From Acidobacteriota bacterium (GTDB lineage Bacteria; Acidobacteriota; Terriglobia; Bryobacterales; Bryobacteraceae), in contig JAKOTR010000053.1 of NCBI GenBank assembly GCA_029776225.1, positions 496,001 through 560,000 on the forward strand: a stretch of 64,000 bases of DNA, read 5' to 3'. Of the stretch, positions 2,876 to 41,683 are shown in pieces. Numbering within the stretch: the first letter of the stretch is position 1; every line of letters begins with the position of its first letter. The notes under the pieces were generated by a model, which searched no databases, was not told where the DNA came from, and saw nothing but the letters and a program-made list of their open reading frames with translations. The translations under genes were made by a program, and so were the position numbers.

Positions 2876-3700
2876 CTAGATTTCGGGCTGCTCCACCACG
2901 CAGACGAAATGGCCCAGGACCTGGTACTCGCCGTCCTCTTCGAGTTCGAGCACCGGGTAGTCGGGGTTCAGCGGCTTCAAGCGGATCCGGGTGTGGCGCC
3001 AGCCCTCCTCGGTCACACGCTTTTCGCTCTCGTAGACTTTGACGGTAAACTCCCCGCCGGTCTCCGACACCCCGCGCCGCCACACCAGCACGCGCTTGCC
3101 CTGCCGCGATCCCGCCGGGTTGTACCGGAAGATAACCAAACTGCCGTCGGGGATTTCCGGCTCCATCGAGTGCCCGGTAACGTGAACGGCGAACATATCC
3201 CGCGTCACCCGCAAGCCAGGCGGCGCGGCCACCCAGTCCGTGGCCTCCGATTCCATATCCCGCCCGAAACCTCCGGCCGCCGCCCGCAGCGAGTAGAGCG
3301 GCACGTGGGTGACGAAAGGAATGACGGGGGCGCGTTCGCGCTCCACTCCCAGCACGTGATCCTCGTACAGGCGCTGGAGCGTGTAAGAAAAATCCCTTAC
3401 GGCGGCCACCTTGCGGTCGGTGATCCGCAAGACGTTCGAAAGGCTGTCTTCCAGCCACTCCAGCACCCGCCGCCCGCCCATCTCGCGCGCCCGCGCCGCA
3501 AGGTCTTGTTTAATGGGCTCAAGCACTTCGGCGTCCTCTGGACTGGCCAGCTCCTTTATGTCGTCGCGGAATTTCAGATACAGGTTATCGGTGGCGGGGT
3601 CGTACAGAAGAACGCCGAAACCGACGGCGGGCCGGCCGGGGAGGGCCAACTGGAGGACGGAATACTCCGCCGTCCGCGCGTCCTGGGACAGTGCTTTCAT
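2876..3700 (-). CDS. DUF3037-like N-terminal domain fused to an S24 (LexA-type) peptidase domain
   Basis: The protein has 274 residues. Residues about 125-274 form a LexA/UmuD-type S24 domain: the nucleophile serine sits in GHSMEPEIPDGSLV (about residue 177) and the catalytic lysine in FTVKVYESEK (about residue 220), the usual 40-odd residues apart. The first ~100 residues are not a helix-turn-helix. They read YSVLQLALPGRPAVGFGVLLYD followed by LYLKFRDD, resembling the DUF3037 family (uncharacterised; my assignment by eye). No Ala-Gly self-cleavage site like that of LexA is obvious. It could be a signal-responsive autoprotease or a phage-derived repressor remnant. It stands alone, 69 bp from the transporter start. 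The S24 assignment is firm; the N-terminal one is tentative. Confidence 0.72.
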   Translation of the reverse strand: MKALSQDARTAEYSVLQLALPGRPAVGFGVLLYDPATDNLYLKFRDDIKELASPEDAEVLEPIKQDLAARAREMGGRRVLEWLEDSLSNVLRITDRKVAAVRDFSYTLQRLYEDHVLGVERERAPVIPFVTHVPLYSLRAAAGGFGRDMESEATDWVAAPPGLRVTRDMFAVHVTGHSMEPEIPDGSLVIFRYNPAGSRQGKRVLVWRRGVSETGGEFTVKVYESEKRVTEEGWRHTRIRLKPLNPDYPVLELEEDGEYQVLGHFVCVVEQPEI

Positions 3701-8501: not shown

Positions 8502-11500
8502 GTGAGCAAACTCCATGTATCCGGCTGGGGTGCACTGCTTGTCCTGCCGTTCGTCTTCTGGTTTCCCTTGTCAGCCCAGACCCCCACAGGCGTTATCCAG
8601 GGGGACGTGACGGATACCACAGGCGCGGTCATCCCCAATGCCCGTGTGATCATTACCAACGTCAACACCGGCGAAAAGGACGAGGTGCAGACTGGCAGCA
8701 CCGGGCGGTTCGTCCGCCCGTTCGTCCGGCCAGGAACCTATACCGTCCAGGTGGAGGTGGAGGGCTTCCGGCCGGTGCGGCAGGACGAGGTGAAAGTGGA
8801 CGTCGGCCAGACGCGTGAACTGAGCTTCACGCTCAAGGTCGGCGCTCTCGCCCAGGAGGTGCAGGTGACCGCGGCGCCGCCGCCGCTGGATACCAGCACT
8901 TCTTCCATCGGGCAGGTGATCGAGAACAAGCGCATTATGGACTTGCCGCTGAACGGCCGTTCGGCGTTCGCCCTGGCGCAAATCACCCCCGGGGTGAATC
9001 CCACAGGGGGCGGTTCCACTCCGCACATGGGAGGCGCCAGAAACGCGCTCAGCGAGTTGCAGATCGACGGCGTTACCGATATTGCCCCCAATAACAACAT
9101 CGGCGTCAACGACCGCGTCTATGAACCGCAGGTAGACGCGGTGGAGGAATTCAGTGTTCAGATCAACTCCCTGGCCGCCGAGTACGGCCGGTTCGCCGGC
9201 GGCGTCATCAACGTAGTAACGAAATCGGGCACCAACACGCTCCATGGGACCGCCTACGACTACCTCCGCAACCAGAAACTGGACGCAAATAACTTCTTTG
9301 CCAATCGGGCTGGGAGAAAACCGGGGGCGTTCAAGCGCAACCAGTGGGGCGGCACGGTGGGTGGTCCGATCTACATTCCGGGCTTGTATGACGGCCGCGA
9401 CAGATCCTTCTTCTTCGTCGGGCTGGAGACTACGAATGCGAGGAGCGGGAGCGTGTTCACCGGCACGATGCCGCTCGAAGCGTGGCGTAGAGGCGACTTC
9501 TCCGACCTGAGGAACTCCGCGGGCCAGCCGATCACGATTTACGATCCGCTCACCGTGCGGGAGGATCCCGCGAATCCCGGCAAGTTCATCCGCGACCCGT
9601 TCGCCGGCAACATTATTCCGGCAAACCGGCAGGACAAGGTGGCGGTAAACGCTATGGAATACTTCCCGCGCCCCAACACTACACCCACCAACGAGTACAC
9701 GGGCGCGAACAACTTCACCAACTCCGGAACGTCGCGCAACGACAGTCATCGTCTGGACACACGGATTGACCAGAACTGGCGGAACTGGTGGCGGATGTTC
9801 GCCCGCGTCTCCACCTCCTGGGGGGGAAAGCATCCCGTTTAACGGCTTCGGGAATATCGCCACCTCCAGCGGCGACGGACCCAGCAAGTCGAAGTCGGTG
9901 AGCGTCTCTCTCGATCACACGTTCACCGTCAGACCCACCCTGATCGCCAACCTCAGATACGGCTTGGGACGAACCAGCAACAACAGGGTGCCGTTCTCGG
10001 ACGGCTTCGACCATGTGGCGCTCGGACTGCCGTCCTATTACGCGGAAACCGCGGCCAGGGAGGGCGCAGAGTTCCCCCGCTTCGAGTTCTCGGGAAGCGT
10101 GGCCAGTCTGGGACAGTTCGGCTGGACCCGCCTTTACGCGGGCGCGCTGACGCACTCCCTAGCCGGCAGCCTGACCAAAATTCTCTCGAACCATACCATC
10201 AAGAGCGGCGGCGAGTACCGGAAGCTTTTCCTCAATTACAACCAGCAGGGCTACCCGTCCGGCCAGTACACCTTTTCCAGCGGCTGGACGCAGCAGGAGA
10301 TCACCACAACGAGCACTACCGCGGGGTTCCCGCTCGCCTCATTCCTGCTCGGCCTGCCCAGCGGCGGCTATATGACGCACGACGGAACCTCCGCCAGCGC
10401 GAGCAGCTATTTCGCGGGATATATTTAGGACGACTGGAAGGTAACTCGCCGGCTCACCCTCAACATCGGGCTGCGATATGACCTGGAGCTCCCGCGCACG
10501 GAACGGTTCAACCGGTTCTCGTTCTTCGACATGGATGCTCCCTCTCCCATTGCGGGCCTGGTGCCGGCCTCTGCCTGCCCCGCCTGCGGAAACTTGAAGG
10601 GGGCGATGAAGTTCGTGACTCCGGACAACCGCCGGCAAACCCCGACGGACCGGAACAACTTCGGACCGCGCTTCGGCTTCGCTTTCCAGGCCACCGATAA
10701 GATGGTCCTCCGCGGCGGCTACGGAATGGCGTATCCACCGTCGCCGATGCAAGCCTGCGGCACCACGGGTTCCTGCGGCATGGAAGGGTTCCGCGGGCAG
10801 ACGAACTTCACCAGCACCTTCGACAGCATGCGCTCGGTCTACGCATACCTGAGCGACCCGTTTCCGGCCGGCTTCAACTTTCCCCCAGGCAGCGCGCTCG
10901 GCGCGGCCACCAAGCTGGGCGAAGGCATCGGAGAATCCCTCTTCGATGCCTACAAGAACTCGCTGGTCCACCAGTGGAACTTCAACATTCAGTATGAGCT
11001 GCCCGGTAATCTGGTGGCCGAGATCGGTTACCTGGGCAACCGCGGGCTCGGGCTGGTCGACGGCGACGGGACTTATTCCTACAACCAGTTGCCCGCCTCC
11101 GCCATGCAGCTCGGAACGGCCCTACTGACTCTTGTCGACAACCCCTTCTACGGGATCATCACGAATCCGACCTCCAGCCTGAGCCGCCCGACGATCGAGT
11201 ACCGCCAACTGCTGCGGCCGTTCCCGCACTACACCGGCGTGGGCTCGTACCGAAAGCCGAGGGCGGACTCCATCTATCACGGCATGACGATCCGCGTCGA
11301 CAAGCGCTTCTCCAACGGCTTCAGCTTCCTGATGGCCTACACGGCGGGCAAGCTGATCGACAACGCCTCGTCCGCTGTCAGCTATCTGGGACCGATCGCA
11401 AGTTCGGTAGAGCTGGGGATCAGCGCCGCAAAGCTGGACGCCTATAACGGCCGCCTGGAGCGCTCCATCTCCTCCATGGATGTCGCCCAGCGCGCCGTTA

Positions 11501-12039
11501 TCAGCTACGTCTACGAATTGCCGTTCGGCAGGGGCAAGCGGTTTTTCGCAGATGCTCCAGGGGCCGTCAATCTGTTAATCAGCGGCTGGCAGGTGAACGG
11601 CATCACGACGTTCCAGAGCGGCCAGCCGATGATCGTGGCGGCGCAGAGCAACAACACCTACATTTACAGCGGCCAGCGGTTGAATAATAATGGCCGGAGC
11701 GCGAGGATCACCGGCGGCACCAAGGATTCGCGGATGGCGCAGTGGTTTGACACAAGCGTCTTTTCGCAACCGCCGGCCTTCACGTTCGGAAACGTGAGCC
11801 GCACGCTGCCGGACGTTCGCGTTCCGGGCCTGCGCAACACGGACCTGTCGATCTTCAAGAACACCTATTTCGGCGAGGACAAGTTCAACTTGCAATACCG
11901 CGTCGAAATGTTCAATGCCTTCAACACCACCCAGTTCGGCCGGCCGGGGCCGGGGTTCGGCTATGGGAACTTCGGCGTGATCAGCAGCACGGCTGTCGGC
12001 GCGCGCCAGATTCAGATGGCGCTGAAGCTTATATTCTAG
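8502..12039 (+). pseudogene. TonB-dependent receptor, Oar-like, broken by a frameshift and an amber codon
   Basis: GTG 8502 follows AGGAGGG. The signal peptide ends near FPLSAQT, followed by a carboxypeptidase-regulatory (CnaB-type) domain (VIQGDVTDTTGAVIPNARV), a plug (PLNGRSAFALAQITPGVNP; SLAAEYGRFAGGVINVVTKSG) and a long beta-barrel ending QMALKLIF with an aromatic terminus. Two lesions interrupt it. At the G7 run 9820-9826 the frame must shift by one base (WG to ESIPFNGFG). At 10426-10428 a TAG stands where related receptors read YxQDDWKVT, so CAG to TAG is likely. With both repaired the product is about 1178 residues, close to the 1181 of the intact paralogue at 38138. The domain order is that of acidobacterial outer-membrane uptake receptors that lack a SusD partner. 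Confidence 0.85.
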
Positions 12040-14326: not shown

Positions 14327-15799
14327 ATGTTTCCCCGGCTGGACTTGGATCGCGCGTCCGATGTGCCTATCTACAGGCAAGTCCACGACCGCATTCGCGA
14401 GCTGATCCTCACCGGAGCGCTGCGCCGGGGAGACCGGCTGCCCGCCACTCGCGAATTGGCTGGCCTGCTTGGACTGAACCGGACCACCATCTCCGCCGCC
14501 TACGACCTGCTCGAATCCGAGGGCCTGATTCAAAAGCACGTCGGGCGCGGCAGTTTCGTGCTGGGCGAAGCGCGAAGTTCGGGACCGGGCCTGAACTGGG
14601 ACGAGCTGCTGCCCGAGGCGGACGTACCCGCGGCGCCCGCTCCCGGCTCGCCAGACGTCATCAGTTTCGCCACCTCGCGGCCTTCCGAAGAGCTGTTTCC
14701 GCTGGATGCTTTCCGGCTGAGTTGCGAGGAGGCGCTGGCCGGGCCGAACGCGGCTTCCATCCTGCAACTCGGCTCTCCGGGCGGCTATCTACCCCTACGG
14801 GATTACCTGCTGGAGCAGGCGCGCCGCACGGGCATTGCGCGCCCGGGCGACGACGTCATCGTCACGAACGGCTGCCAGCAGGCGCTGGATTTGATTGAAC
14901 GCGTGCTCGTGCGCCCCGGCGACACCGTGCTGGTAGAGGATCCGGTCTACCCGGGCCTGAAAAACCTGTTTCTGCACGCCGGCGCGCAGTTGGCCGGGAT
15001 CCCCGTCCGCCGCGACGGCGTGGATTTGGAAGTGCTCCAGCGGCTGATCGCGCGCGGCCGGCCGCGGCTGCTCATCGTGACGCCGAATTTTCAGAATCCG
15101 ACCGGAGCGACGCTGCCGGTGGCCTCACGGCTGGCGATCTTGCGCATGGCGCACCATGCCGGGCTCATCATCGTCGAAAACGACATTTACGGCGGACTCC
15201 GGTACGAAGGGGAGGACGTGCCGCCGATCAAGCAACTCGACGAGTCGGGCGATACGGTTCTGCTGCGCAGTTTCTCCAAGTTGACCTTCCCCGGGCTGCG
15301 TGTCGGATGGGTGGTGGGGCCCAAGGCGCTGTTGGCGCGGCTGACCGAGGCCAAGCAGCTCGCCGACCTCCACACGGACCAGCTTGCGCAGGCCGTGCTC
15401 CTGCGTTTTGCCGAATCCGGCCGCCTGGAAGCGCATGCGGCGCGCGTGCGAGCGGCCGGGGCCGAAAGACTGCGGGCGGTGCTGGAGGCATGCGAGCGCT
15501 ACCTGCCCCCGGGCAGCTCCTTCACGCGTCCGGAAGGCGGGATGAGCCTGTGGGTGAGGCTGCCCGAGCCGCTCGATGCGGGCGAACTGCTCGGCCGGGC
15601 GCAGGCCGCGGGCGTCTCTTATATGCCGGGAAGATACTTCACGGTGGCCCGCCACGAGCCGGGAGCGCTGCGTTTGAGCTTCGCCGGCCTTCCGCCGGAA
15701 AAAATCGAGGCGGGCCTGGCGATTTTGGGAAATTTGTTTTCGAGCGAGCTTGCGAGGGCGAGGACGGAGCGTTTCGAGCCCGCGCAGGCCATAGTGTGA
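14327..15799 (+). CDS. pdxR: MocR/PdxR-family regulator (GntR HTH fused to aminotransferase fold)
   Basis: The product has 490 residues. Residues 1-80 are a GntR winged helix: VPIYRQVHDRIRELILTGAL, then RGDRLPATRELAGLLGLNR and a GLIQKHVGRGSFV wing. From about residue 120 a fold-type I aminotransferase domain follows, with TNGCQQALDLI, EDPVYPG, TPNFQNPTGATLP and SFSKLTFPGLRVGWVVG, which carries the PLP lysine. MocR proteins bind PLP through this domain, and PdxR members control vitamin B6 synthesis. The gene ends 62 bp before pdxS on the same strand, which supports the PdxR role. In many genomes pdxR is divergent from pdxST; here it is codirectional and may be cotranscribed. A dyad at 14270-14292 may be its operator. 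Confidence 0.85.
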   Translation: MFPRLDLDRASDVPIYRQVHDRIRELILTGALRRGDRLPATRELAGLLGLNRTTISAAYDLLESEGLIQKHVGRGSFVLGEARSSGPGLNWDELLPEADVPAAPAPGSPDVISFATSRPSEELFPLDAFRLSCEEALAGPNAASILQLGSPGGYLPLRDYLLEQARRTGIARPGDDVIVTNGCQQALDLIERVLVRPGDTVLVEDPVYPGLKNLFLHAGAQLAGIPVRRDGVDLEVLQRLIARGRPRLLIVTPNFQNPTGATLPVASRLAILRMAHHAGLIIVENDIYGGLRYEGEDVPPIKQLDESGDTVLLRSFSKLTFPGLRVGWVVGPKALLARLTEAKQLADLHTDQLAQAVLLRFAESGRLEAHAARVRAAGAERLRAVLEACERYLPPGSSFTRPEGGMSLWVRLPEPLDAGELLGRAQAAGVSYMPGRYFTVARHEPGALRLSFAGLPPEKIEAGLAILGNLFSSELARARTERFEPAQAIV

Positions 15800-36719: not shown

Positions 36720-37124
36720 ATGCATTTCAGTGAAACTACTTTGCGCGTCCGCTATGCCGAAACCGATCAGATGGGAGTGGTTTACTACTCCAACTACCTC
36801 GTCTGGATGGAAGTGGGACGCGTGGATTACTGCAAATCGGTGGGCTTCAGCTACCGCGATATGGAGGAACAGGACGGCGTGATCCTGGCGGTAGCGGAGG
36901 CGCATTGCCGCTACCTGCACCCCGCCCGGTTTGACGACGAGGTGATCGTGAAGACCTGGGTCGAGAAGGCGAGCTCACGGATGGTGCATTTCGGATACGA
37001 GATGCGCCGGGCCTGCGACGGCCGCGTGCTCGCCACCGGCGCAACGAAACACCTGTTCTGCACCCGCGACCTGAAACCCGCGCGCATGCCACAGAAGTAT
37101 CTCGCGCACTTCGGCCTGGCGTAG
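36720..37124 (+). CDS. Acyl-CoA thioesterase, YbgC/FadM-type hot-dog fold
   Basis: The product has 134 residues. The hot-dog signature reads VRYAETDQMGVVYYSNYLVWMEVGR, with the catalytic Asp of the DxxG motif, as in YbgC-type 4-hydroxybenzoyl-CoA thioesterases. A SRMVHFGYEMRRACDGRVLATG strand follows. It hydrolyses short- or medium-chain acyl-CoA in the cytosol. ATG 36720 is chosen; an in-frame ATG at 36708 is possible, but a TACAAT -10-like box overlaps it, which would place transcription start after that codon. The gene is divergent from the TesA-like lipoprotein. Confidence 0.88.
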   Translation: MHFSETTLRVRYAETDQMGVVYYSNYLVWMEVGRVDYCKSVGFSYRDMEEQDGVILAVAEAHCRYLHPARFDDEVIVKTWVEKASSRMVHFGYEMRRACDGRVLATGATKHLFCTRDLKPARMPQKYLAHFGLA

Positions 37125-37130
37125 CGGCCC

Positions 37131-37673
37131 CTAGCGGTAGGATTTGTCGTCGATCCGGCTGAGGTCCACTCCGTCCTCAAACACGCCGAGCGTGACCACG
37201 GCAAAGGTGAACACGGTGGTGCCGGGTTCCAGGTGGCCGCCGAAGGCCTTGTCCGGGTCGGCAAGCGTGATATGGGCGTGGATGCGGCCGTCGATGATAT
37301 ACCCGTTCATGCTTACTATGTCCGCCGGCGCGGTAGGGTCCTTGACCAAGACGTTCTTCGACGGGAAGGTGCGATTGCTGACCGTGTGCACGTGATAGTT
37401 GCGCACCGAACCCGCGCCCGCCAGAATGACGGCGTTGCGGATCTGGTGGCGCTTCACCATGCTTTCGAGGCCGGCAAGCAGGTCGGTCTGATACTTGAAA
37501 CGTAACACCAGAATGCGTTCGAACCGCCCGCTAATGGCGTAAACCTCCGGAATTTCGCTGCTATTCGGCCTGGAATCTCCGGGCGCTGGCTTGGTAATTT
37601 CGGTCCGGGTCTGCTGTGCGGGCGCGAGCGCGGCCAACACAAAAAGGGCGAATACGGCGATGCTGGTTCTCAT
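37131..37673 (-). CDS. Secreted PPC (DUF296)-domain protein
   Basis: The product has about 180 residues. After a signal peptide (MRTSIAVFALFVLAALAPAQ), a single PPC/DUF296 domain spans about residues 50-175. Seen: RFERILVLRFKYQTDLLAGLESMVKRH, AVILAGAGSVRNYHVHTVS, GYIIDGRIHAHITLADPDKAFGGHLEPG and VFTFAVVTLGVFEDG. In this family the His of HAHITL binds metal in crystal structures, and the domain forms trimers. Functions are unknown outside plant AT-hook proteins. Secretion is unusual but is also seen in other Acidobacteria. Start 37673 is preferred to 37685. It is convergent with the thioesterase, 6 bp apart. Confidence 0.82.
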   Translation of the reverse strand: MRTSIAVFALFVLAALAPAQQTRTEITKPAPGDSRPNSSEIPEVYAISGRFERILVLRFKYQTDLLAGLESMVKRHQIRNAVILAGAGSVRNYHVHTVSNRTFPSKNVLVKDPTAPADIVSMNGYIIDGRIHAHITLADPDKAFGGHLEPGTTVFTFAVVTLGVFEDGVDLSRIDDKSYR

Positions 37674-37744
37674 AGGTTTCCTCATCCTACCGCTTTCCCC
37701 GGCCGCCGGTGAACCGGCCGCCCGACGGGTTCAGCCGGCTGGGG

Positions 37745-37833
37745 ATTAGCCCGGAGCCTCTTACTGCCAACCGCACAGTACACCACGTCGAGTTGGTGGT
37801 CTATATACACCACCTAAGCTTGGTGCTTTAGAA
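37745..37833 (+). repeat. Block 1 of a duplicated ~88-bp upstream element with two dyads
   Basis: The 3' 54 bp (37780-37833) equals 37936-37989 except for one base. It holds two 18-bp dyads of form CACCA-N8-TGGTG at 37781-37798 and 37808-37825, separated by GTCTATATA, so their centres are 27 bp apart. The 5' part (TTAGCCCG ... TGCCAACC) is similar in the second block with small gaps. Confidence 0.7.
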
Positions 37834-37904
37834 CGCGATAAACCGGCGCCAGGGCGGCGGGTGCATGTTACAGAAATAACCAGCCTTTTTGTAGACCACG
37901 AAGT

Positions 37905-37989
37905 TAGCCCGCAGCGCCTTATTGCCAACCAGAAGACACCACGTCGAGTTGGTGGTCTATATACACCACCTAAGATTGGTGCTTTAGAA
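37905..37989 (+). repeat. Block 2 of the duplicated element, nearest the receptor gene
   Basis: The dyads are CACCA-N8-TGGTG at 37937-37954 and 37964-37981. The second has AT for CT within the 8-base gap, next to the right half; both half-sites are intact. It lies 28 bp before the -35 box of the receptor promoter. Between the blocks (37834-37904) there is no clear motif. The whole 452-bp gap from the start of the PPC gene to the receptor contains no supported gene. Confidence 0.7.
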
Positions 37990-38017
37990 GGCCAAACCTA
38001 TTTAAGTCGAAATACTC

Positions 38018-38046
38018 TTGATTTCACCTTTAACTCGGGATAGCAT
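38018..38046 (+). promoter_or_regulatory. Promoter of the intact TonB-dependent receptor
   Basis: TTGATT (38018-38023), a 17-bp spacer, TAGCAT (38041-38046). The -35 and spacing equal those of the broken receptor's promoter, though the -10 is weaker. Start near 38053 gives a leader of about 85 nt. Confidence 0.55.
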
Positions 38047-38069
38047 TAACCAGATCGTGAGGTGAGTGC

Positions 38070-38089
38070 CGGGAGGATTTCTCCTCCCG
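38070..38089 (+). promoter_or_regulatory. Perfect 8-bp hairpin in the receptor leader
   Basis: CGGGAGGA (38070-38077) pairs with TCCTCCCG (38082-38089) across a TTTC loop. The left arm looks like a Shine-Dalgarno sequence but is about 60 nt from the ATG; the real site is AAAGGAG at 38126-38132. It could stabilise the mRNA or hide a decoy ribosome site. Confidence 0.45.
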
Positions 38090-38137
38090 AAGGCGGGGTA
38101 ATCTCGCCGTCGTTACTAAATTCGAAAGGAGCAGTGA

Positions 38138-41100
38138 ATGCATTCAATCGTTCACAGAGTGCTTACTTGCGTGATGCTCTGTTTCCTTGTTGCACTGCCC
38201 GCTTTGGGCCAACTCGACACCGGGACGATCACCGGCCGTGTGGTGGATCCAACCGGCGCCGTAGTTGTCGGTGCGCAAGTTACGGTGACGCACACCGGAA
38301 CTAACTTCGAAAACGTAACTCAAACGAACAGCGAGGGACTCTACCGCGTGCAGGCGTTGCGGCCGGGTCCGTATCGCGTGACAGTTCAGGCAGCGGGTTT
38401 CAAGACGCAAGTCCGCGAGGGCTTTGAACTGAGAGTCAACGACACACTCGCAGTCGATTTGGTGCTCGAAGTGGGCTCCACAAGCGAGTCGATTCTGGTG
38501 ACCGACACCTTGCCTCTGTTGCAGACGGAAACCTCGACCGCGGGCCAGGTGTTGGAAGGGCAGGTATTCTACTCTCTGCCTATCTTCCAGCGTCAGCTAA
38601 GAACCGTGCTCTATTTCCTGCCCGGCATGACGCAGGGAAACACGGCCTGGCCGGGCCAACTGAATGCCTTTCATATAAACGGACTGGCGGGCACGCAGAT
38701 TGGATTTTTCGAGGACGGCGTGCTGGCGACGAACATGTATGACGGCAACGCCGTGAACACCGTGATGGCCGGCGTCGAGGAGGCAAACGTGCTGACCTCC
38801 GCGCTGCCCGCCGAGTACGGGCACACGCCTGGAGGAGCCATTACGATCGTCAAAAAAACGGGAACCAATGAACTGCACTTCCTCGCCCAGGAGATGATAC
38901 TTACCCGCCGGATGTTTCCGCGGGGCTTTTTCGAACTGGAGACGCTGACGACGCCGCGGCCCGGCTATCCGAACGGTCTCCCGTATCTCTATCAGACTCC
39001 CGACGGCATCATTTCCGGCCCGGTCTGGATCCCCAAGCTCTATAACGGCAAGAACAAGACCTTCTTTACGTTCTCGTTCCAGATCCCGTTCTCTAACGAA
39101 AGCAAGTACGGGCAATATTCCGTACCGACTCCCGAGATGTTGGAGGGCGATGTTTCCTTGAACGGCAGAGGCCAGCCGATCTTTGATCCGATGACGACGC
39201 GGCAAGACGCAGACGGCAACTGGCTGCGCGATCCGATTCCGAACAATATCGTCCCCAAGTCCCGCTGGAGCAACGTTGCCAAAGCCATCATCGCGCACGA
39301 TCCATGGACGCCGCCAAACAAGGAAGGCGACGTGTCGCCATCGACTGTGGCGAACAATATCCAAGGGAACCAGGCGCTGAAGTTGTGGTGGCCCAGTTAT
39401 TCGTTCCGCGTCGACCATCAGTTCACTCCCAACGTCAAGGCATACATCACCATGACGTGGAACAATTTCTACGTGAAGAACGCCAACGCCGCTATCGATT
39501 ACGCCCCCTATGATTGGAACAAGGTGTTCACCCCCCAGATTCAGTACACCCCGTCCATAGGTCTTTCCTGGGTGATCAGTCCCACACTGATCAGCGAGAC
39601 GCGGATCGGGATGTACCGGCAAACGAGGAACACGCAGTCTCCGTATCAGCAGGCCATAACGGACACGCTGGTGAACGAGGCTAAGGTCCCCGGCATTCCT
39701 TCGGACTGGTACGTGGAAAGGCTGAATGTCGGCGTGGGCAGCAACCTTGGAGGCGATCCGGCGAGCGTTGCCACGCGCGGAAACCGGAGCATCAAGCAGG
39801 ATATTACGAAGATCTCGGGAAGGCATGCGTTCAAGTTCGGCTATGACTACCTGTTTATGGAAGAATTGAGCCGGAATATCGGCGTTCCGCGGCTTAGGAT
39901 TAACTGGGCCGGTACGCATGGCCTCAACCCCAACGGGACCAGCATACCGGGCACCGGCATCAACTGGGCGGCGTTCCTGCTCGGCGGCGTGAGCGATGTG
40001 AGGGTTACTGTCCAGGGGCCGACCTGGCTGCCCAGGACGCACATCCACAGTTTCTATTTCCAGGATGACTGGAAAATCCACCCAACGCTTACGCTCAACC
40101 TCGGAATCCGGTACAGCACCGAAAGCCCGTTGACCACCAAGAACAACGCAATCAGCGTTTGGGATCCGTACGCGAAGGACGACGTGGCGGGCAGCTACCC
40201 CTATTGCCCCCCGACGGGCTGCATGGGCATGTGGACGCACCCGAAAGGCGCCTGGTATAACCGGGACCACGACAACTACCAGCCGCGAGTCGGCCTGGCG
40301 TGGCATCCCTGGGAGAAATTGGTGGTTCGAACCGGTTTCGGGCTGACCACGCAAGACATGGGTCTGACCTGGTACACCAGCCGGGACGAGTACGATCTTC
40401 AATTCACGCAGGCCGCTCCCCTTGGTGATTTGAGGCCGATCTTCCACATTGACCAGGGTCTGCCACCCATCACCTGGCCGGCTCTCCGTCCCGATGGCAC
40501 GGTCCCGTTCTACGGAACGAACCTGAATTCCCGCAGTGCCGTCATCGTGCCGAAGAACATAGAAAACCCATACACGATGAACTGGAATTTCGGCATCCAG
40601 TATCAGCTCGCCAGGAACTACATGGTTGACGTCACCTATTCGGGCAGCTCCGGTGTGGGTCTCATTGGGAACAGCCAGTGGAACTCCCGTCCCTGGGGCA
40701 TCATTCCCAATCCCAACGGTGACGGCTTCATGGATCTGAACGATCCCGCCAATGCCGAGTACCGTCGGGTGTGGGTCGGCAGAAGCGATCTGCAGGCCCA
40801 GGCTCGCCCGTGGCCGAACTGGGGCTCGGTGAACTACCGTTCCAACTTCGGTCACTCGGTCTATCACGGCGGCACCGTCAAGCTCGAAAAGCGTTACTCA
40901 CACGGCATCAGCGTGATAACGTTCTACACTTTCTCGAAGTCCATCGACGGCAACGCAGGCAACCCCTATCTCGACTGGAGGCTCCTGCGGGGACGCAGCG
41001 ATCACGACTCCACACACCGGTACGTCGGCACCTTGCACTGGGAGCTCCCGTTCGGCAAGGGCCGCGCCTTCCTGAACCGCGGCGGAATCGTGAACCTGCT

Positions 41101-41683
41101 GGCCGGCGGCTACAACCTGACCTGGAACTACCAGATCTGGAGTTCCAACCCTCAGGGCCTGAACATCAGCAACTATCCCACCCAGGCGGACCAGTATCCC
41201 GATTGGATGCCCCGCTATGGAAACAACGTGATTCTGCTCCGGCGCCCGCAACTCAGGGACAACTGGAAGGACATCGGCGGCGACCGCTACACCCAGTCCA
41301 ATCAGAACCCAATCCTCGATTGCGGCGATTTCATCCCGGGCTGGGGCAACTCGTGCATGACGTATGCCGGGTCTTTCGAGCGCGGCAACCTCGGCAGAAA
41401 CGTCTACACCAAGCAACGCCTGATTGCCGCCAACATATCGCTCAGCAAGGACATTCCGCTTAAGGAAAAGCTGACGCTGCAACTCCGGTTCGACTACCAG
41501 AACCCCTTCAAGTGGTTCAACTGGACCGGCCTGACGACCAACCTCGACATGAGGAACTACAAGGAAATAGCACCAGGCAGGTACGCTTCCACGTTGTTCG
41601 GCAAAGTCGGAACGGGCGAGCAGGACATTTCGTTGAACGGCGGACACCCGCTCATGTGGGCGTTCGTCGCTCTGAAATGGTAA
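38138..41683 (+). CDS. TonB-dependent receptor, Oar-like, intact
   Basis: The product has 1181 residues. The signal peptide (MHSIVHRVLTCVMLCFLVALPALGQ) precedes a carboxypeptidase-regulatory domain (residues ~28-112: TITGRVVDPTGAVVVGAQVTV, LYRVQALRPGPYRVTV). The plug lies at about 115-240 (SLPIFQRQLRTVLYFLPGM, LPAEYGHTPGGAITIVKKTG), followed by a long barrel ending AFVALKW with a terminal aromatic residue. The FYFQDDWKIHPTLTLNLGIRY motif is intact. It is an outer-membrane channel driven by TonB, probably for oligosaccharides or siderophores; no SusD-like partner is near. AAAGGAG precedes ATG 38138. The gene has its own promoter, the duplicated dyad blocks upstream, and a strong terminator. 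Ligand unknown. Confidence 0.92.
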   Translation: MHSIVHRVLTCVMLCFLVALPALGQLDTGTITGRVVDPTGAVVVGAQVTVTHTGTNFENVTQTNSEGLYRVQALRPGPYRVTVQAAGFKTQVREGFELRVNDTLAVDLVLEVGSTSESILVTDTLPLLQTETSTAGQVLEGQVFYSLPIFQRQLRTVLYFLPGMTQGNTAWPGQLNAFHINGLAGTQIGFFEDGVLATNMYDGNAVNTVMAGVEEANVLTSALPAEYGHTPGGAITIVKKTGTNELHFLAQEMILTRRMFPRGFFELETLTTPRPGYPNGLPYLYQTPDGIISGPVWIPKLYNGKNKTFFTFSFQIPFSNESKYGQYSVPTPEMLEGDVSLNGRGQPIFDPMTTRQDADGNWLRDPIPNNIVPKSRWSNVAKAIIAHDPWTPPNKEGDVSPSTVANNIQGNQALKLWWPSYSFRVDHQFTPNVKAYITMTWNNFYVKNANAAIDYAPYDWNKVFTPQIQYTPSIGLSWVISPTLISETRIGMYRQTRNTQSPYQQAITDTLVNEAKVPGIPSDWYVERLNVGVGSNLGGDPASVATRGNRSIKQDITKISGRHAFKFGYDYLFMEELSRNIGVPRLRINWAGTHGLNPNGTSIPGTGINWAAFLLGGVSDVRVTVQGPTWLPRTHIHSFYFQDDWKIHPTLTLNLGIRYSTESPLTTKNNAISVWDPYAKDDVAGSYPYCPPTGCMGMWTHPKGAWYNRDHDNYQPRVGLAWHPWEKLVVRTGFGLTTQDMGLTWYTSRDEYDLQFTQAAPLGDLRPIFHIDQGLPPITWPALRPDGTVPFYGTNLNSRSAVIVPKNIENPYTMNWNFGIQYQLARNYMVDVTYSGSSGVGLIGNSQWNSRPWGIIPNPNGDGFMDLNDPANAEYRRVWVGRSDLQAQARPWPNWGSVNYRSNFGHSVYHGGTVKLEKRYSHGISVITFYTFSKSIDGNAGNPYLDWRLLRGRSDHDSTHRYVGTLHWELPFGKGRAFLNRGGIVNLLAGGYNLTWNYQIWSSNPQGLNISNYPTQADQYPDWMPRYGNNVILLRRPQLRDNWKDIGGDRYTQSNQNPILDCGDFIPGWGNSCMTYAGSFERGNLGRNVYTKQRLIAANISLSKDIPLKEKLTLQLRFDYQNPFKWFNWTGLTTNLDMRNYKEIAPGRYASTLFGKVGTGEQDISLNGGHPLMWAFVALKW

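Follow-up and report, generated by a model that had tools for sequence, protein, structure and literature searches.

Palindromic boxes before receptor genes are an already known kind of element. In Xanthomonas and Caulobacter, TonB-dependent receptor genes for iron and plant sugars carry such boxes upstream, including a 19-bp Fur box and a 20-bp xylose-regulon box, according to the excerpted account (PMC1790865). Binding sites of the GntR family have also been compared. As excerpted, that comparison describes palindromes in which GT...AC boxes (TKGT/ACMA in FadR sites) flank an A/T-rich centre; additional half-sites often accompany the main site, 7–12 nt from its centre, and the GT-AC gap is 2–3 nt in most FadR sites and 4 nt in most HutC sites (PMC4494728). 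YtrA sites are described in the same excerpt as a long palindrome whose GT/AC are distant from its middle, usually present as a single site before an ABC-transporter operon (PMC4494728). The literature on the regulation of Oar-like receptors in Acidobacteria, as searched, named no operator for such a receptor, and a search on TrmB operators in bacteria returned no match. A further search, on CACCAC/GTGGTG operators, reportedly had the CrbS/R system among its matches. LysR-type regulators bind as tetramers to a recognition site and an activation site, two adjacent dyads upstream of the promoter, with a T-N11-A in the dyad. In MerR-type promoters, good -35 and -10 boxes are separated by a 19-bp spacer that has a dyad at its centre.

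The locus described here lies in a 64-kb stretch of DNA, which is called the window below. A 57-bp unit occurs in it twice on the + strand; pairwise comparison gave 55 of 57 identical bases, the starts are 156 bp apart, and each unit holds a pair of exact CACCA-N8-TGGTG dyads, spaced 27 bp from centre to centre. The initial annotation had described the duplication, the four dyads and both spacings, and its coordinates and description proved correct. On balance, the block is probably a duplicated, lineage-specific regulatory module, putatively bound by a regulator, for the Oar-like receptor gene at 38138–41683. Its parts are as follows:

37747..37844, + strand: copy 1 in full extent, with a diverged left flank before the 57-bp core and a few right-flank bases after it (edges approximate)
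37904..38001, + strand: copy 2 in full extent (edges approximate)
37780..37836, + strand: core unit 1, 57 bp, with dyads at 37781–37798 and 37808–37825 (pattern match)
37936..37992, + strand: core unit 2, 57 bp, with dyads at 37937–37954 and 37964–37981 (pattern match)
37795..37814, no strand: inner 20-bp palindrome GGTGGTCTATATACACCACC of unit 1, 9/10 pairs (symmetry scan)
37951..37970, no strand: inner 20-bp palindrome of unit 2 (symmetry scan)

The duplication extends leftward beyond the core, to about 37747 and 37904, with 89% identity over about 90 bp, and the similarity ends a few bases to the right of the core; the spacer between the two full copies is 59 bp. In the symmetry scan, the best centre of each unit (37804.5 and 37960.5) belonged to the inner palindrome, which sits between the two dyads of the unit. 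The first dyad of the initial annotation reached 7/10 pairs at 20-bp width, and the second fell outside the five best centres listed. Of the roughly 128,000 centres that the window offers, eight reach 9/10 pairs, and two of these are the inner palindromes of the units. The whole unit can be read either as half-sites of alternating direction or as two 27-bp direct repeats.

Such an arrangement is rare in shuffled sequence. At up to one mismatch, CACCA-N8-TGGTG has seven matches in the window against 1.32 expected, a number reached in 0 of 100 shuffles; five of the seven are exact, and the fifth exact one (1204–1221) lies inside a called gene. Same-arm double dyads were defined by 5-bp arms, a spacer of 3–12 and starts no more than 60 bp apart, and were counted against dinucleotide shuffles of the window. 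Three are present in the window, two of them being these units, against a mean of 0.4 in 20 shuffles, one of which, however, had four. The 452-bp intergenic region holds two and a single unit holds one, and no double dyad appeared in any of 2000 and 5000 shuffles, respectively. The dyad arms were first spotted in the same data, and these figures describe rarity rather than the outcome of a blind test. A chance arrangement was set aside on these dyad and double-dyad counts, with the one whole-window shuffle in 20 as a caveat.

The two copies have not diverged evenly. Two of the 57 core positions differ between them, while the left flank, over 33 columns, has 7 differences and a 2-base gap (Fisher p = 0.012 for 2/57 vs. 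7/34, counted by hand). The lower divergence of the core points to selection on it, but gene conversion or a composite origin might leave the same pattern. This pattern also bears on a simpler account, namely a recent local duplication, about 95 bp long and without function, in which a symmetric stretch was present by luck. Duplications are common, and neither the other genomes searched nor the DNA upstream of a 70%-identical receptor gave a convincing match, as this account would have it. Nevertheless, the symmetry is present in both copies and is thus probably older than the duplication, same-arm double dyads are rare among unit shuffles (with the whole-window caveat given above), and divergence is lower in the core than in the left flank; we regard a functionless duplication as unlikely, though worth keeping in view.

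The occurrence of the double dyad was followed in the window's own genome (5.18 Mb, a 97.7% complete assembly), in a family set of 237 genomes including this one, and in wider collections. The genome-wide search for CACCA-N8-TGGTG pairs at 27-bp spacing, which the initial annotation had proposed, returned a single locus at up to two mismatches, and one further site at three mismatches against three control sites. The other 236 family genomes gave no double dyad at zero or one mismatch. At two mismatches, nine of them had matches, but the reversed control matched 10 genomes; the nine were therefore not counted in favour of a clade-wide operator. The inner palindrome pattern was absent from 60 relatives, a 111-bp DNA query against 36 relatives found nothing convincing (best E = 0.09), and no double dyad was present in the plasmids and phages searched. 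Among viral contigs there were seven pattern matches, each inside a stretch with an open frame.

Since the own-genome, family, plasmid, phage and viral searches gave no sign of spread, a dispersed mobile repeat is disfavoured, within the limits of the assembly. Many copies at unrelated sites, which had been named beforehand as the mark of such a repeat, were looked for in the own genome and the family and were not seen; there are two copies at one locus of the 97.7%-complete assembly. A remnant of a mobile or REP-like repeat would account for a palindromic unit in two intergenic copies. It is nonetheless very improbable, given that a third double dyad is missing from the genome at up to two mismatches (the site at three is matched by three in the control), that the 36 relatives lack a convincing DNA match, and that the viral matches all fall in open-frame stretches.

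In a search of 84,980 species genomes with a 7–11-bp gap allowed between dyads, four stretches were recovered, a number near what chance could give (about one by hand estimate). The first, from a Bacteroidia MAG, is a tandem repeat, and the second is a repetitive stretch open in several frames. The third, in Thiohalocapsa marina (L088:969–1240), is an intergenic GTAGGGTGGACAAGCG...CGCCGTCCACC repeat, present three times; by eye, the two genes on either side resemble general-secretion genes. The fourth, from Solidesulfovibrio alcoholivorans, is the promoter region of a TrmB-like gene. There, two CACCA-N8-TGGTG dyads 28 bp apart (L087:6590–6635) stand immediately before the regulator gene, the second overlapping a Shine-Dalgarno-like AGGAGG; from their position, they are possibly a self-control site of that gene. 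In the window's own genome, two TrmB matches passed the cut-off, a strong one (the gene at G000:C80:17643) and a weak one, and the 24 loci examined held no exact CACCA-N8-TGGTG or ACCA-N8-TGGT. A TrmB-family operator was accordingly rejected, as the strong TrmB gene has no such dyad upstream.

The block lies within 452 bp of non-coding DNA between two divergent genes, and the units are about 145–358 bp upstream of the receptor gene. The features around it are as follows:

38138..41683, + strand: Oar-like TonB-dependent receptor, 1181 aa, with CarboxypepD_reg and OMP_b-brl_4 domains (Pfam); presumed target
37131..37685, − strand: divergent PCC-domain protein, 184 aa (Pfam); alternative or additional target
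38018..38046, + strand: weak candidate for a sigma-70-like core promoter, TTGATT-N17-TAGCAT, with 8/12 matches (predicted; below promoter-scan threshold)

The candidate promoter lies 120 bp before the receptor start codon, and a promoter scan of the region returned none at threshold. The initial annotation had placed the block just upstream of the receptor promoter; its position upstream of the receptor gene stands, while the promoter is unconfirmed, being represented by this weak 8/12 candidate. Sigma-54 promoters follow the -24/-12 consensus TGGCACG-N4-TTGCW, to which the best match downstream of the units reached 8/12. An NtrC-like enhancer acting with a sigma-54 promoter was rejected, as the -24/-12 promoter is absent.

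Folding was considered with regard to a transcribed leader that would form alternative hairpins, as an attenuator or in the manner of a riboswitch. The inner and outer arms are able to pair in alternative ways; the initial annotation had noted the pairing of the inner arms with each other. However, RNA folds of two 96-nt stretches are near shuffle level (z = 0.42 and -1.52), which leaves the attenuator-like hairpins unsupported, and the only Rfam match in 37000–38800 (E = 0.42) is below the gathering score and outside the units. In addition, the terminator search found a single terminator-like site, on the minus strand and within shuffle expectation (mean 0.8), and, if the promoter at 38018–38046 is right, the units are upstream of the start and would not be transcribed from it. 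A leader of this kind is thus scarcely credible. As single-stranded DNA, the 47-nt blocks gave z = -2.05 and -1.69 (8 and 12 of 200 shuffles as good), the inner 20-mer z = -2.12 and the first dyad z = -0.73; these folds are mildly better than those of shuffles, which is expected of any palindrome. A separate hairpin, CGGGAGGA-TTTC-TCCTCCCG, was observed at 38070–38089, in what is presumed to be the receptor gene's leader, where Rfam has no match; the 148-nt stretch holding it has a fold z of -1.45 as a whole.

Compared with the described systems, the unit shares features with several of them. GntR-family operators come closest in their letters: like them, the unit has TGGT...ACCA around TATATA and extra half-sites, but the GT-AC gap in GGTGGTCTATATACACCACC is 8 nt rather than 2–4 nt, which does not fit a FadR or HutC site, and the extra half-sites are about 21 nt from the centre rather than 7–12 nt (PMC4494728). 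The palindrome is long (20 bp), as in the YtrA sites of that excerpt, but there are multiple sites and the presumed target is a receptor gene (PMC4494728). The Fur and xylose boxes recur across their regulons, whereas the present unit is found at one locus only, and its sequence differs from that of the Fur box (PMC1790865). The two neighbouring dyads upstream of a candidate promoter resemble LysR-type sites, but the T-N11-A is missing, the left arm of CACCA-N8-TGGTG having no T, and no LysR domain was found in the window proteins scanned.

For candidate regulators, 48 genes were roughly called in the window and 33 of these were scanned with Pfam, none of which is a regulator that can be tied to the dyads. 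No GntR gene is near the dyads among the genes scanned; a MocR-type GntR-aminotransferase gene (14327–15799) lies about 22 kb away, downstream of a broken receptor region, and an S24-peptidase-type, repressor-like gene (2876–3700) about 34 kb away. The broken region (window 8502–12039; G000:C21:504538–507607) is a receptor gene of the same family split in two, with a stop codon inside the second match. Its N-terminal piece spans 8502–9842 (barrel profile 1–177) and its C-terminal piece 10531–12039 (profile 414–838); it is either a broken gene or an assembly error.

Homologous receptors provide a further comparison. Across the family set, the nearest homologue is in another genus (G073; 70% identical), followed by paralogues of the own genome at about 50%. 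Upstream of the G073 receptor gene, TTGACA-17-TAGTAT stands about 145 bp from the start codon, and the 500 bp of upstream DNA have no dyads at up to two mismatches. Alignment of the window with the G073 upstream DNA was no better than with single-base shuffles, which did as well in 125 of 200 cases for the whole intergenic region and in 357 of 1000 for the promoter piece. At this level, a reading of the two core promoters as one inherited element is unsupported.

The own genome has 54 match rows for Oar-like receptors, corresponding to dozens of receptors; from this abundance we take the host to be a member of the Acidobacteriota. For comparison, 57 receptor upstream regions were assembled, 30 from these rows and 27 from other genomes, one of them being that of the window; the start codons were chosen by a simple rule that is surely wrong in places. 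Exact CACCA-N8-TGGTG was found in 0 of the other 56 regions, and a form with one mismatch in two, both from the own genome. One of the two belongs to the paralogue at G000:C46:107377, where the related dyad ACCAC-N9-GTGGT is flanked by TTTACA and TATATT. About 4.2 kb from this dyad, beyond a divergent receptor gene, is a gene for a 102-aa HTH_3 protein (L175:5220–5528); the end of the same contig carries a phage terminase (GpA_nuclease) gene (L175:17107–17943).

A single-dyad pattern was drawn from the paralogue's own match, which makes its match at zero mismatches circular; in 120 other genomes the pattern matched 10 times and its reversed control 15 times. Six of these 10 were examined in context by eye, and two are promoter-region-like, one lies at an argC-like promoter and three are coding. 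The two promoter-region-like matches come from two other family genomes (L078 in G020 and L079 in G065). Both are CACCAC-N6-GTGGTG palindromes; one seems by eye to stand in the promoter region of a CoA-transferase-like gene and the other in that of a divergent gene pair, and these palindromes are possibly an operator of their own. The third (L076; G001:C1:6245), in the same genus, has an extended -10-like TTGTGGTATATT followed by TATTCATTCAGGTGAATAATTA, as seen by eye; we take the promoter to be argC-like and TATTCATTCAGGTGAATAATTA to be arginine-box-like.

With the pattern ACACCAC-N6-KTGGTG at up to one mismatch, the own genome has the four window sites and eight others, and the reversed control had 11 matches, at positions that were not given. 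Three of the eight are upstream of receptor genes, at distances of up to about 200 bp, and they are dissimilar: one is in a CACAACAC/GTGTTGTG palindrome, one is in the promoter spacer of a divergent gene, and one is the known paralogue. These counts, picked after the data had been seen and mixed in kind, are only a hint of a regulon shared among receptor genes. At L187 (G000:C14:347912), before another receptor gene, the perfect palindrome CACAACAC-N7-GTGTTGTG directly follows a TATAAT box.

The position of the paralogue's dyad raises another reading, in which both units are promoters in their own right, either MerR-type or blocked in the spacer, the operator dyad occupying the 17–19 bp that separate a -35-like ...ACA from a TATATA/TATATT-like -10, and the duplication has created two tandem promoters. 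The paralogue's TTTACA-17-TATATT has the dyad in its spacer, the Solidesulfovibrio match reads TTGACA, dyad, TAGTTC directly before the TrmB-like gene, and one receptor-adjacent dyad lies, by eye, between TTGACA and CAGTAT of a divergent gene. The unit can likewise be read as ACA, CCACGTCGAGTTGGTGGTC and TATATA in succession, with a 19-bp spacer in which the dyad is nearly centred. The -35 boxes, however, are poor by eye (AGTACA and AAGACA), and the scan returned no promoter in the region. The paralogue's TTGTGGTATATT, moreover, resembles an ordinary extended -10, the consensus of which is similar, and is shared with the argC-like promoter of the same genus. Tandem promoters are therefore improbable, but they are among the alternatives to be taken seriously.

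Thus, the reading that best fits the locus is a regulator-binding site, because the block is intergenic, lies upstream of the receptor gene, is strongly symmetric, is confined to one place in the genome, and has its dyad block better kept than its left flank. To this extent the initial annotation is supported, and its cooperative operator as a whole remains an inference. A dimeric regulator of the helix-turn-helix type would occupy the symmetric half-sites of each unit, either as two dimers on the dyads, 27 bp (2.6 turns) apart, or as one dimer on the inner 20-bp palindrome together with the outer half-sites. The 156 bp between units correspond to 14.9 helical turns, which would place both on roughly one face of the DNA, where they could help each other in holding the regulator. 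Relative to a start predicted near 38053, the sites would be at about -80/-107 and -236/-263. If the weak TTGATT-17-TAGCAT promoter is real, these upstream positions favour its activation over blocking, and the divergent PCC-domain gene may be controlled instead of, or together with, the receptor gene.

A more specific form of this regulator-binding module, which we consider doubtful, is a four-site looping switch. Here, an undescribed regulator would bind the two dyad pairs, 156 bp apart and nearly on one face of the DNA, form a loop, and recruit polymerase to the weakened promoter, and the switch would have arisen by local duplication after the split from relatives without the sites. If true, it would be a young and traceable gain of regulation. 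Irrespective of looping, the module, if real, would serve as a DNA bait for finding the regulator of Oar-like receptors, and it would offer one locus at which the gain of an operator may be dated against a relative without it.
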